The notes below the pieces were generated by a model. That model ran no database searches, was not told the origin of the DNA, and worked only from the letters and a program-made list of their open reading frames with translations. The translations under genes and the position numbers were made by a program. Shown piece after piece: positions 28,878 to 33,114 of a stretch of DNA of 64,000 nucleotides; positions within the stretch are counted from its first letter, which is position 1, and the number at the start of each line of letters is the position of its first letter. The stretch is from contig NZ_JAPELX010000001.1 of assembly GCF_026343335.1 (NCBI RefSeq), positions 4,464,001 through 4,528,000 of the forward strand. Reading direction: 5' to 3'. Origin of the DNA: Streptomyces sp. NBC_00078 (GTDB lineage Bacteria > Actinomycetota > Actinomycetes > Streptomycetales > Streptomycetaceae).

Positions 28878-30176
28878 ATGGCTGAACAGTCCATTCCGGA
28901 GACCCGCGCTCCCAAGGCACCGCCGTCCGGGGCCGCTGCCGGGGACACGTCCCCAGGAGACGGCATCTCGCGACGGAAACTGCTCGGCACCGCCGGCGCC
29001 ACCGGGCTCGTGCTCGGCGCGGCCGGCGGCGCCGTGGGGTATGCCGCCGCCCCCTCCGGGGCCACCCCGCTCAGCTCACTCGGCTCCGACCGGGCGATGT
29101 TTCACGGGAAACATCAGCCCGGCATCACCGAAGGTCTCCAGGCCCGCGGCCATCTCGCCGCGTTCGACCTGGCGGCGGGCGCGGGCCGCAAGGAGGCGGC
29201 CGCACTGCTGCGCCGCTGGTCGGTGACGGCCGGGCGCCTGATGAGCGGCGAGGGGGCGGCGCACGACGACACGGATGTGGCCCGCGACGCCGGCCCGTCC
29301 TCGCTCACCCTCACCTTCGGCTTCGGCCACAGCTTCTTCTCCCGCACCGGTCTGGAGAAGCAGCGCCCGGTCTCCCTCGACCCGCTGCCCGACTTCTCCT
29401 CCGACCTCCTCGACAAGGCCCGCAGCAACGGCGATCTGTGGGTGCAGATCGGCGCCGACGACGCCCTGGTCGCCTTCCACGCCCTGCGCGCGATCCAGAA
29501 GGACGCGGGCGGCGCGGCCCGCATCCGCTGGCAGATGAACGGCTTCAACCGCACACCGGGCGCCACCACGCACACCATGACGGCCCGCAACCTCATGGGC
29601 CAGCTGGACGGCACGCGCAATCCGAAGCCGGCCGAGCCCGACTTCGACCAGCGGATCTTCGTTCCGTCCTCGGGCTCGAACGACCCGGCCTGGATGGCCA
29701 ACGGCTCCTACGCCGTCGTCCGCCGCATCCGCATGCTCCTCGACGACTGGGAGAAGCTCTCACTCATGGCCCAGGAGAACGTCATCGGGCGCCGGAAATC
29801 CAATGGGGCGCCCTTGTCGGGCGGCACCGAGACGACCCCGATGGACCTCGACAAGGCCGACTCCAAGGGCGAGTACGTCGTCCCGGTGAACGCCCACGCC
29901 CGCATCACGCGCCCCGACCAGAACGGCGGTGCGGCCATCCTGCGGCGCCCGTTCTCGTACCACGACGGCTTCGACGCGGACGGGGTTCCTGACGCGGGCC
30001 TGCTCTTCGTCTGCTGGCAGGCCGACCCGCTGCAGGGCTTCGTCCCCCTCCAGCGCAAGCTCGACCGGGGCGACGCCCTGTCGAGGTACATCCGCCACGA
30101 GGCGAGCGGTCTGTTCGCCGTGCCGGGCGGGGCGGCGCAGGGCGAATACGTGGGGCAGCGGCTGCTGGAGGGGTGA
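28878..30176 (+). CDS. dtpA: Dye-decolorising peroxidase (DyP), Tat-exported, DtpA-like
   Basis: 432 residues. The twin-arginine signal SRRKLLGTAG (Arg32, Arg33) directs folded haem protein export. The DyP signature GxxDG is present as GQLDG (catalytic Asp244) followed by TRNPK; the haem-ligand His lies in the C-terminal half. It begins 8 bp after CopCD. In S. lividans, DtpA works with the copper chaperones during maturation of a copper radical oxidase (from memory). A parS-like site lies inside the coding region at 29098-29113. Confidence 0.9.
   Translation: MAEQSIPETRAPKAPPSGAAAGDTSPGDGISRRKLLGTAGATGLVLGAAGGAVGYAAAPSGATPLSSLGSDRAMFHGKHQPGITEGLQARGHLAAFDLAAGAGRKEAAALLRRWSVTAGRLMSGEGAAHDDTDVARDAGPSSLTLTFGFGHSFFSRTGLEKQRPVSLDPLPDFSSDLLDKARSNGDLWVQIGADDALVAFHALRAIQKDAGGAARIRWQMNGFNRTPGATTHTMTARNLMGQLDGTRNPKPAEPDFDQRIFVPSSGSNDPAWMANGSYAVVRRIRMLLDDWEKLSLMAQENVIGRRKSNGAPLSGGTETTPMDLDKADSKGEYVVPVNAHARITRPDQNGGAAILRRPFSYHDGFDADGVPDAGLLFVCWQADPLQGFVPLQRKLDRGDALSRYIRHEASGLFAVPGGAAQGEYVGQRLLEG
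29098..29113. promoter_or_regulatory. parS-like site (ParB binding), one mismatch, within dtpA
   Basis: TGTTTCACGGGAAACA differs from the consensus TGTTTCACGTGAAACA at one position. Other parS sites occur in this window. Confidence 0.6.
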
Positions 30177-30239
30177 GGGCCGGGACGGGAGCCCACGGAC
30201 GGGGCCCTGGTGAGACGGGCGAGCCGCGCTTTCGTCAGG

Positions 30240-30249
30240 CCCATTAGGG
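30240..30249. repeat. Left target-site duplication of the IS4-family element
   Basis: CCCATTAGGG is repeated exactly at 31768-31777 on the other side of the element. The 10-bp length is typical of IS4-family target duplication. Confidence 0.9.
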
Positions 30250-30262
30250 CAAGGCCGTGAAG

Positions 30263-31564
30263 TTATGGGCTGATGGGCCCTGTCAACAGGATGTCGATGC
30301 TGATGGTGGCCTTGTAGGTGCGTCGGTCCACTCGCAGGCTCTTGTACGCGTATCGGGACAGTGGTCGCTTGACGGCGCGGGGGCTGACGCGCAGGCGGCG
30401 GGCTGTCATCGGGTGGTTCAGGACGGCTCGTCCGATGGTTCCGACGAGGTCGATGGTGGTGTCGGCGATGATGCCTGCGGCTTGGACGACCTGGTCGCGG
30501 GCGGTGTGGAGGGCGATGCTGAAGCTGGCCCGGTCGGGGTCCGCGTGGGGGAGGGTCGCGGTGGCGTCGGCGATGGCAATCCTGATCAGCTGGTAGGCGG
30601 TCAGCAGGGCGTAGACCTCCTGGGCGATACCGGACATGGTCCGGGCGCGCAGGACCCGGCGCCCGAGGATGGACTTCTTGATCGCGAAGAAGGCGGACTC
30701 CACTTCCCACCGCTCGTGATACTGCTTGACCAGCTCGAATGCCGGGTAGCGGCGGTGGTCGAGCAGGGTGGTGGCCAGCCGGTAGACACCGGTGGTGCGC
30801 CCGGCGGTGGTGGCGATGGTGATCTCGCACTCGATGACGCGGACCTCCAGCCGGCCGATCCTGGACAGGAACGAGCCGTCCTCGTAGCGGTGCAGGATGG
30901 GTGGTTTGCGGGTGGCGGACAGCCGGGCGAGGAACGCGGCGCCGGTGTCCGCGACCGTGGTCAGGAAGGCATTGGAGGACAAGCCGCGGTCCAGCAGGAC
31001 GAGCATGCCCTCGTGCAAGGAGCGGGCCAGGCGCTTGCCATGGGTGGTCTCGCCGCTGGTGCGCGGGCCGAAGACCGCGTCGATCACGGCCCGGGTGCCG
31101 CAGGCGACCAGGGTGACCAGGCAGATCTGGGGATAGCCTGAAGTGGCGTACTGGTTGGAGCCTTTGCCCAGGTGGGCCCGGGTGGCGGGAGCGTCGGGGA
31201 CGTCGAGGTAGGTGCCGTCGACGGCGACGACCAGCAGACCCGCCCAGCGGGCCCCGGTGGTGCGGATCGCGCTCGCCGGGCCGCGCAGCAGGTCGAACAG
31301 GGCCCGCATGGGGCGGACACCGAGCCGGGCGCGGGCGTGCCACAGTGCCGTTGCGGTGACCTTCGGGACCGGCAGGCAGTGCAGTGCGGAGGTCAGCCTG
31401 GCCCACACCGCCGGATAGCCGCACTCCTCGAACAGAGCAGCGGCCAGGAGGAGGTAGACGACCACCCGGGCGGGGAGTTTCCGCAATCGCTGCTGGACGG
31501 CCCCGCACTCAGCCAGGGCGGCGTCGACCATCTCGAACGGGACGATCTGCGTCAACTCACCCAA
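30263..31564 (-). CDS. IS4-family transposase, apparently intact
   Basis: 433 residues. The N-terminal IS4 domain (about 1-95) is followed by a DDE catalytic domain: VVAVDGTYLDVPD (first Asp), VLLDRGLSSNAF (second Asp) and the YREK-type motif YHERWEVESAFFAIKKSIL with the catalytic Glu. No frameshift or internal stop. The intact frame and exact target duplication suggest a recent insertion. The region 31565-31767 upstream holds its promoter and the outward promoter. Confidence 0.95.
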   Translation of the reverse strand: MGELTQIVPFEMVDAALAECGAVQQRLRKLPARVVVYLLLAAALFEECGYPAVWARLTSALHCLPVPKVTATALWHARARLGVRPMRALFDLLRGPASAIRTTGARWAGLLVVAVDGTYLDVPDAPATRAHLGKGSNQYATSGYPQICLVTLVACGTRAVIDAVFGPRTSGETTHGKRLARSLHEGMLVLLDRGLSSNAFLTTVADTGAAFLARLSATRKPPILHRYEDGSFLSRIGRLEVRVIECEITIATTAGRTTGVYRLATTLLDHRRYPAFELVKQYHERWEVESAFFAIKKSILGRRVLRARTMSGIAQEVYALLTAYQLIRIAIADATATLPHADPDRASFSIALHTARDQVVQAAGIIADTTIDLVGTIGRAVLNHPMTARRLRVSPRAVKRPLSRYAYKSLRVDRRTYKATISIDILLTGPISP

Positions 31565-31729
31565 GTGACCCGGAGCGAAAAGACCGTCGGCTACCGCGAT
31601 CTCGCGGCTGATGACACACTGACCCGACAGCGGAGCCTCCGGTGCTGTGAACGGCTTGTCTTGGCGGACCAGCCAGTTCTACCGGGGCTCCGCTTCTCGC
31701 GTCCGGTGTTCCTCCAGATCAGACCCCAC

Positions 31730-31757
31730 TTGCAGCCACGGACCCGCCCCGTAACTT
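31730..31757 (+). promoter_or_regulatory. Outward-facing promoter at the IS4 right end, reading into pheA
   Basis: TTGCAG (31730-31735), a 16-nt spacer and TAACTT (31752-31757) lie at the element's right terminus, the -10 within its inverted repeat. Transcription would start near 31764 and give a leader of about 20 nt into pheA, whose RBS survives beside the target duplication. The -35 matches the consensus only in TTG, so strength is uncertain. Confidence 0.5.
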
Positions 31758-31767
31758 CATGGCCTTG

Positions 31768-31777
31768 CCCATTAGGG
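31768..31777. repeat. Right target-site duplication of the IS4-family element
   Basis: An exact copy of the left duplication, CCCATTAGGG. Its AGGG continues into TGAGG and keeps the pheA ribosome-binding region (AGGGTGAGG) intact. Confidence 0.9.
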
Positions 31778-31784
31778 TGAGGTC

Positions 31785-32717
31785 ATGCCAGCGAGCTACG
31801 CGTATCTCGGTCCCGAGGGCACCTTCACCGAAGCCGCCCTGCGCACCCTTCCCGAGACGGCCACCCGGGAACTGATCCCGTACGTGTCCGTCCAGTCCGC
31901 GCTCGACGCGGTCCGCGCCGGTGAGGCCGAGGCCGCGTTCGTGCCGATCGAGAACTCCGTCGAGGGCGGCATCACCACCACCCTTGACGAGCTGGTCGCG
32001 GGCGCCCCGCTGATGATCTACCGCGAGGTGCTCCTGTCGATCACCTTCGCGCTGCTGGTGCGGCCGGGCACCAAGCTCTCCGACGTCAAGACCGTCTCCG
32101 CGCACCCGGCCGCCCAGCCGCAGGTGCGCAACTGGCTCAGGAACAACCTCCCGGACGCCCACTGGGAGTCGGCCGCCTCGAACGCGGACGCCGCCCGGCT
32201 GGTCCAGGAGGGCCAGTACGACGCGGCCTTCGCCGGCGAGTTCGCCGCCGCCCTGTACGGCCTGGAGGCGCTGGAGACCGGGATCCACGACGCCGAGAAC
32301 GCGCAGACGCGGTTCGTGCTCGTGGGCCGCCCCGCCCGGCCCGCGGCACCGACCGGCGCGGACAAGACGTCCGTCGTGCTGTGGCAGCGCGACGACCACC
32401 CCGGCGGCCTGCGCGATCTGCTCGACGAGTTCGCCACCCGCGGCATCAACCTGATGCTGCTGCAGTCGCGGCCCACCGGCGCCGGCATCGGCAACTACTG
32501 CTTCTGCATCGACGCGGAGGGCCATATCTCCGACCGCCGGGTGGCCGAGACCCTGATGGGGCTCAAGCGGATCTGCCTGGAAGTGCGGTTCCTGGGTTCG
32601 TACCCGCGTGCGGACATCGGCGTCGAGGACGTACGCGCGCTGTGGCGGGGAACGTCCGACGAGGAGTTCGTCGCGGCCTCGGACTGGGTGGCGCGCTGCC
32701 AGGACGGCCGTTTCTAG
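31785..32717 (+). CDS. pheA: Prephenate dehydratase
   Basis: Converts prephenate to phenylpyruvate in phenylalanine synthesis. 310 residues. It opens YAYLGPEGTFTEAALRTL and carries the substrate motifs VPIENSVEGGI and TRF (NAQTRFVLVG). A C-terminal ACT domain follows (DDHPGGLRDLLDEFATRGINLMLLQSRP) with the ESRP-like phenylalanine-binding region. Start ATG 31785 follows AGGGTGAGG. The IS4 copy now separates the gene from whatever promoter lay beyond 30240, so present expression probably depends on the element. Confidence 0.95.
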   Translation: MPASYAYLGPEGTFTEAALRTLPETATRELIPYVSVQSALDAVRAGEAEAAFVPIENSVEGGITTTLDELVAGAPLMIYREVLLSITFALLVRPGTKLSDVKTVSAHPAAQPQVRNWLRNNLPDAHWESAASNADAARLVQEGQYDAAFAGEFAAALYGLEALETGIHDAENAQTRFVLVGRPARPAAPTGADKTSVVLWQRDDHPGGLRDLLDEFATRGINLMLLQSRPTGAGIGNYCFCIDAEGHISDRRVAETLMGLKRICLEVRFLGSYPRADIGVEDVRALWRGTSDEEFVAASDWVARCQDGRF

Positions 32718-32774: not shown

Positions 32775-33114
32775 TTGTCCACAGGAGTTATCCACAGGCA
32801 GGCTTCTCGACCTGGGGACAAGTCGACACCTACACATCGCTCGGTCGACAAATCGGCCTGCAGGCCCCTCTCGCGTCCACCGGCCCGCATGTCACCGTTC
32901 GTCCACCCGTTTCCTTTAGGCAATCCTTTGGAGCGACCCATTTCCACTCGAAAGCAGTGGTAAAGCAGGGTCTGCACCGGGAATCCAGGGCGTGACGCAG
33001 CAGTTTCGGAGTGATCAATTCCGAAATCCACAGACCGTCCGCACACCCTGTGGATAACTCTTCGGGGGTTGTGGATCGCTGTGGACAACCGAGCCCCAAG
33101 TCCCGTTCCCCACA
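32775..33114. promoter_or_regulatory. Cluster of DnaA boxes between pheA and serS
   Basis: Near-consensus 9-mers: TTGTCCACA at 32775, TTATCCACA at 32788, TGTGGATAA at 33049 and TGTGGACAA at 33080. Weaker boxes lie at 32813 (TGGGGACAA), 33024 (AAATCCACA), 33070 (TGTGGATCG) and 33106 (TTCCCCACA). This 564-bp gap has no gene. From memory, a high-affinity non-origin DnaA-box cluster called D78 was described on S. coelicolor cosmid D78, which covers this locus, and limits replication initiation. Confidence 0.85.

Follow-up and report, generated by a model that had tools for sequence, protein, structure and literature searches.

Insertion of an IS4-family element into a probable leaderless pheA promoter in Streptomyces sp. 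NBC_00078, with a target duplication that rebuilds the -10 box

We analyzed a 64,000-nucleotide stretch of the Streptomyces sp. NBC_00078 genome (the window), in which a gene for a deferrochelatase/Dyp-type peroxidase, identified by Pfam and NCBIfam matches (28878-30176, plus strand), is the upstream neighbor of pheA (31785-32717, plus strand), an open frame encoding a 310-aa prephenate dehydratase with PDT and ACT domains. Between the two genes lies an intact IS4-family insertion sequence of 1518 bp (30250-31767, minus strand), flanked by an exact 10-bp duplication, CCCATTAGGG, whose left copy at 30240-30249 and right copy at 31768-31777 were located in the sequence by script. The distance from the element to the pheA ATG at 31785 is 17 bp. 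The first-pass annotation of this DNA had described an intact 1518-bp IS4-type element with an exact 10-bp duplication 17 bp before pheA, separating the gene from its old upstream DNA; the sequence, the paired arms and the transposase matches bear this out, and the element does lie between that flank and the gene. Outside the window, about 215 kb into contig C1, the genome carries a second prephenate dehydratase gene (L326, G000:C1:215077-215607) with an open frame of 282 aa and a match to PF00800 of 171.7 bits, and survival of the strain is therefore no proof of pheA expression.

The element ends pair over 23 nt at 91% (arms 30247-30269 and 31748-31770), and the paired arms extend 3 nt into each copy of the duplication. 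The terminal inverted repeats themselves occupy 30250-30269, at the transposase 3′ end, and 31748-31767, at the transposase 5′ end, which faces pheA. A single open frame on the minus strand (30263-31564) encodes a transposase of 433 aa that matches the Pfam profiles Nterm_IS4 (7e-28) and DDE_Tnp_1 (1.7e-15), both above cut-off, as well as the NCBIfam IS4 profile (3.7e-48), with NF033592 giving 164.3 bits against a cut-off of 115. The Y(2)R(3)E(6)K motif was found at residues 282-296 as YHERWEVESAFFAIK, and D116, D192 and E289 were placed by motif with spacers of 75 and 96. For the IS4 family the covered part of PMC2266710 gives D(60-110)D(100-150)E, and the spacer of 96 falls just below the second range as printed, which is marked there as approximate. 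The 10-bp duplication fits the IS4-family trait of approximately one helix turn and is exact in all three identical copies in this genome. According to the same part of PMC2266710, the IS4Sa subgroup has ends of the form CA------T, repeats of 8-10 bp and a size of 1150-1750 bp; the element has CAAGGCCGT, 10 bp and 1518 bp, so that its ends, size and duplication fit IS4Sa. The stop codon of the transposase frame, TAA (30263-30265), is inside the terminal inverted repeat, so that the coding end and the repeat are jointly constrained. A search for a transposase promoter on the minus strand between 31561 and 31790 returned no TANNNT.

The 9.33-Mb genome contains three identical full-length copies of the element with three different exact duplications, alongside one further element of 71% identity and four weaker matches. 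Three identical copies with three different duplications indicate recent movement of the element and rule out a chance match. For comparison of the ends we used both ends of 33 distinct elements (66 ends), comprising a near clade (n=15, transposase >70% identical, own copy included) and a farther clade (n=18, 50-65%); the 33 differ in sequence and include same-genome copies (for example L045, L309 and L310). The list used to pair element ends, with 54 rows, contained some false pairings such as the 1829-bp L122 and 1780-bp L169 rows, and later element counts were limited to lengths below 1540 bp. The target-motif count was chosen by identity and mismatch only; it and the other target counts allowed at most one mismatch between duplication copies and merged sites with identical 14 bases on both sides (L310 beside L043 was removed). 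A distant 1794-bp relative, which contains TTGACA, is present in genome G225 in three copies (L305, L306 and L307). All three are flanked by the 10-bp duplication GCCCTTGACA (or its complement) next to an identical set of six bases, which points to a longer and more specific target. At L123, two farther-clade elements stand head to tail and have one GGGCTAGCCC copy in common.

On the pheA side, joining the flanks gives the ancestral order ...GTCAGGCCCATTAGGGTGAGGTC-ATG. The duplicated ten bases stop at the fifth base of the hexamer TAGGGT. The base that follows the left copy is a C supplied by the element, yielding TAGGGC, and the base that follows the right copy is a T, yielding an intact TAGGGT at 31773-31778 that ends 6 nt before the ATG. 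The sequence from -17 to the ATG is unaltered, and the exchanged DNA lies beyond -17 only. The joined ancestral stretch (139 bp of upstream flank plus the pheA side) contains TAGGGT as its one TANNNT, and its best -35-like hexamer has 2/6 matches to TTGACA (spacing 14-19). In the present arrangement, the plus strand from 31565 to 31784 contains exactly two TANNNT, TAACTT and TAGGGT, which are 21 bp apart.

We compared this region across 90 pheA loci of the same genus, the window included, out of 150 genomes; the 90 are the 30 best matches (the window among them) and 60 picked from lower ranks, and the loci are related. TANNNT lies 12 or 13 nt ahead of the start codon in 77 of the 90 (at -12 in 71 and at -13 in 6), and no other single offset between -60 and -6 has it in more than 2. 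The inner bases of the 77 loci are GGG in 54, GGC in 10, CCG in 4, AGG in 3, CTG and CGC in 2 each, and CGG and AAG in 1 each, a variation that fits a -10 box and not a Shine-Dalgarno sequence. The covered part of PMC4895711 gives TANNNT as the -10 motif of S. coelicolor, present at 80.4% of its starts, and classes 21.0% of its primary starts as leaderless. Information content in our comparison peaks from -14 to -5 and is at most 0.11 bit from -36 to -31 (73 of 90 rows, in two of which, L221 and L252, the start is set too far downstream), and 76 of the 77 TANNNT loci have at most 3/6 matches to TTGACA at a spacing of 16-19. We therefore rejected a classical -35 ahead of the native -10 in the relatives on information content and hexamer matches, the latter scored against TTGACA, the weaker -35 motif of S. 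coelicolor being NTGACC. Among the 90 loci, the end of this element was found within 60 bp upstream of pheA in the window alone.

A Shine-Dalgarno 4-mer at the usual spacing is present in 3 of the 77 TANNNT loci, each time as AAGG within TAAGGT, whereas 11 of the 13 other loci have one (Fisher p 6e-10, which overstates independence as kinship among the loci is uncorrected). Those 11 carry the Shine-Dalgarno sequence in place of TANNNT at -12/-13 (L240, L242, L250, L251, L253, L255, L256, L261, L265, L273 and L274), and L258 and L264 have neither. Predicted anti-Shine-Dalgarno pairing energy differs modestly between the TANNNT loci and the others (means of -6.7 and -7.9 kcal/mol, respectively; p 0.015). 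With TANNNT at -12/-13, varied inner bases and a Shine-Dalgarno sequence mostly absent (74 of the 77 TANNNT loci have no such 4-mer), and with TAGGGT 6 nt before the ATG in the window, pheA is probably leaderless. The pattern suggests two start modes for pheA, leaderless in most loci and led by a ribosome site in a minority; it further suggests that the gene changed between the two within one genus, which would make it a natural test case for such a switch. In the literature searched, judged from titles and abstracts, we found no mapped start for pheA (SCO3962), and the word "prephenate" does not occur in the main text of PMC4895711, the part of that source covered here.

We also considered the element ends as promoters. 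The end facing pheA carries TTGCAG (31730-31735) and TAACTT (31752-31757) separated by 16 nt on the plus strand, a candidate outward promoter at 31730-31757 whose TAACTT is within the terminal repeat and whose geometry would place a start at about 31764 with a leader of about 21 nt. TTGCAG matches TTGACA at 3/6 positions with a spacing of 16, a weak promoter on paper, and a sigma-70 scan of 29800-32000, with a scan not made for streptomycete promoters, returned no site. TAACTT, which fits TANNNT, lies within both terminal repeats of the window element and is invariant at the pheA-facing end type in 15/15 near-clade elements; across the 33 elements, almost all ends have AACT as part of the repeat. 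A TTGAC block is located near position -37 from the tip at 41/66 ends, and the spacer from TTGAC to TAACTT is 15 bp at most near-clade ends having TTGAC. The block is kept in 24/27 ends without TANNNT versus 17/39 with it, a contrast confounded with clade because most ends without TANNNT are from the farther clade. At the end type that faces pheA, TTGAC together with TANNNT is found in 3/15 near-clade elements, so a paired -35/-10 is not conserved there, and the window element carries TTGCAG instead; the pair is found at the opposite end type in 12/15, the window element among them. This far end reads TTGACA-N15-TAACTT on the minus strand (30260-30286), pointing away from pheA toward the end of the peroxidase gene, and its TTGAC block overlaps the last transposase codons. 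From these comparisons, the TTGAC block may be read as part of a two-part terminal repeat, and an outward promoter at the far end, directed away from pheA, is possible. Also possible are a weak chance start at about 31764 in the pheA-facing end and a hybrid promoter joining an element -35 to the native -10, for which the best hexamer is GTAACT (spacing 16, 3/6).

We propose that the -10 box of a leaderless pheA promoter was the landing site of an IS4-family element that has been active recently. The 10-bp target would have ended one base before the last T of the box. Next to pheA the duplication would thereby have rebuilt TAGGGT, 6 nt ahead of the ATG, while the far copy was left as the broken TAGGGC. 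The exchange would have affected only the DNA beyond -17, where the relatives have little conservation and no -35-like peak. The pheA transcript would then begin with, or close to, the A of the ATG, the gene keeping its own -10 and its leaderless translation and the element acting as new flanking DNA, perhaps with a weak second start. The insertion, the duplication, the remade box and the conservation of that box can be read directly from the DNA; we infer use of the box, a leaderless mRNA and near-normal expression. Judged on sequence evidence, we give the reading that pheA still starts without a leader from its own remade -10 a probability of about two in three. The first-pass annotation had held that the duplication preserves the pheA ribosome-binding region, but what it chiefly keeps is the TAGGGT box, which is conserved in the genus at a leaderless position, and the supposed ribosome site probably overlaps that box.

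That annotation also took TTGCAG-N16-TAACTT for the promoter that drives pheA, which would give a leader of about 20 nt and put expression under the element, possibly with a change in strength or timing. Both hexamers exist where it placed them, TAACTT is a genuine outward TANNNT, TTGAC occurs near the same place across the wider group, the opposite near-clade end type pairs it with TANNNT, and the leader pairs with the anti-Shine-Dalgarno sequence at -6.9 kcal/mol, between the two class means, hence the transcript would be translatable and not without a ribosome site. We nevertheless consider a main promoter in the element quite unlikely: TTGCAG is a poor -35 and the sigma-70 scan was empty, the invariance of TAACTT is that of a terminal repeat present at both ends, TTGAC is rare at this end type and is kept more often overall where TANNNT is missing (subject to the clade confounding), and the native -10 is still whole. 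The ancestral site was, moreover, already without a -35-like hexamer (2/6 versus the element's 3/6). Of the earlier reading as a whole, then, the analysis supports the insertion, the duplication, the separation from upstream DNA and the outward TANNNT, and gives no support to the ribosome site as what the duplication chiefly keeps, the element-driven pheA or the built-in promoter.

Use of both starts, giving a leaderless and a short-leader mRNA and regulation or timing altered by the extra start, is unlikely as well; it draws on the presence of exactly two plus-strand TANNNT upstream of the gene, but at 21 bp apart the two may be near enough to compete. We regard as very improbable that the insertion cripples the pheA promoter and that the strain relies on the second prephenate dehydratase or on external phenylalanine. 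The genome does encode that second PF00800 protein, and the covered part of PMC6585502 lists pheA (SCO3962) among the genes of a genome-wide mutagenesis screen of S. coelicolor, which suggests that such mutants can live; against this, the pheA frame is open, the -10 is whole and the relatives have no conserved -35 to lose. Our preferred reading remains transcription from the restored native box.

The choice of target was compared across the element and its relatives. Position 3 is C and position 8 is G in each of the 13 near-clade duplications; 8/13 fit NNCTWWAGNN exactly and 5 are one base off, the pheA site CCCATTAGGG among them. Farther-clade duplications follow NNNCTAGNNN in 21/22 sites. 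Symmetrical targets, near CTWWAG or CTAG, are used by the element and its relatives; the literature searched, judged from titles and abstracts, contained no description of this target rule. In the 64-kb window, CTWWAG occurs once and CTAG 10 times, where base composition alone predicts about 16 and 176, and C[AT]TTAG or its complement occurs 3 times, all outside predicted genes, two of these being the copies of this duplication. The window's only CTWWAG, at 32914 in the pheA-serS spacer, is an unused near-clade target.

Among the 34 insertions with enough flank, we placed 22 in the spacers between predicted genes, 8 at stop codons and 4 within genes, whereas random points in the same loci fall between genes in 39.8%, at stop codons in 0.4% and inside genes in 59.8%. 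Genes were predicted by G+C at the third position and site classes are approximate; L072 was left out of the classing (<250 bp of flank), and the classes of L309, L311 and L317 are weak (about 300 bp). Coding DNA has few of the target motifs, and insertions accordingly lie between genes or at stops in 30/34 cases. No additional selection against insertion into genes is needed to explain this, as the other CTAG/CTWWAG sites of these loci (n=40) are split similarly (27 between genes, 6 at stops and 7 internal). At L002, L122, L098, L165, L177, L059, L060 and L056 the element or its relatives have inserted at predicted stop codons, the target supplying a TAG or TAA, and the duplication preserves the stop. 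We also considered targeting of hairpins or terminators, given that several near-clade sites are loop-like (CCCCG..CGGGG), and set it aside; the folding energy of 36 empty sites is mostly ordinary compared with windows of the same loci, with L138 and L178 in the lowest 2%.

Tentatively, and with less than even confidence, we suggest that this lineage picks symmetrical, A+T-rich targets bearing TAG or TAA, which in a 70% G+C genome would mostly be stop codons, -10 boxes and spacer DNA, and that the duplication remakes the signal on the gene side, so that an insertion would repair itself and do almost no harm, even one as close as 17 bp to a biosynthetic gene. For stop codons this idea draws on 8/34 sites, and for -10 boxes on the single pheA site. 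A target rule that avoids codons, combined with a duplication that restores signals, suggests how such elements could do little harm in GC-rich bacteria. The locus additionally illustrates how easily an insertion before a leaderless gene is misread as promoter capture, the apparent ribosome site being the -10 box.

IS10/Tn10 has a symmetrical target, NGCTNAGCN, a 9-bp duplication and an outward promoter at one end. The element described here shares a symmetrical target with CT...AG, but differs in its 10-bp duplication, its CTWWAG-like or CTAG target and an outward promoter that is only putative. With IS4Sa, as described in the covered part of PMC2266710, it shares YREK, a single transposase frame, ends of the form CA------T, a 10-bp duplication and a size within 1150-1750 bp, a placement in the subgroup by ends and sizes. 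Like the Streptomyces leaderless promoters in the covered part of PMC4895711, pheA has an AUG start and a TANNNT placed for transcription from the ATG; unlike them, an insertion split its box and the duplication restored it, and its start is predicted. Elements that activate neighboring genes through an outward or hybrid promoter (PMC9330008 and PMC7986276, in the parts covered) resemble the window element in having an end near a gene start and an outward TANNNT, but those elements supply the promoter, whereas the own -10 of pheA survives. We view the pheA insertion as a clear case of a known type of event with an instructive twist.
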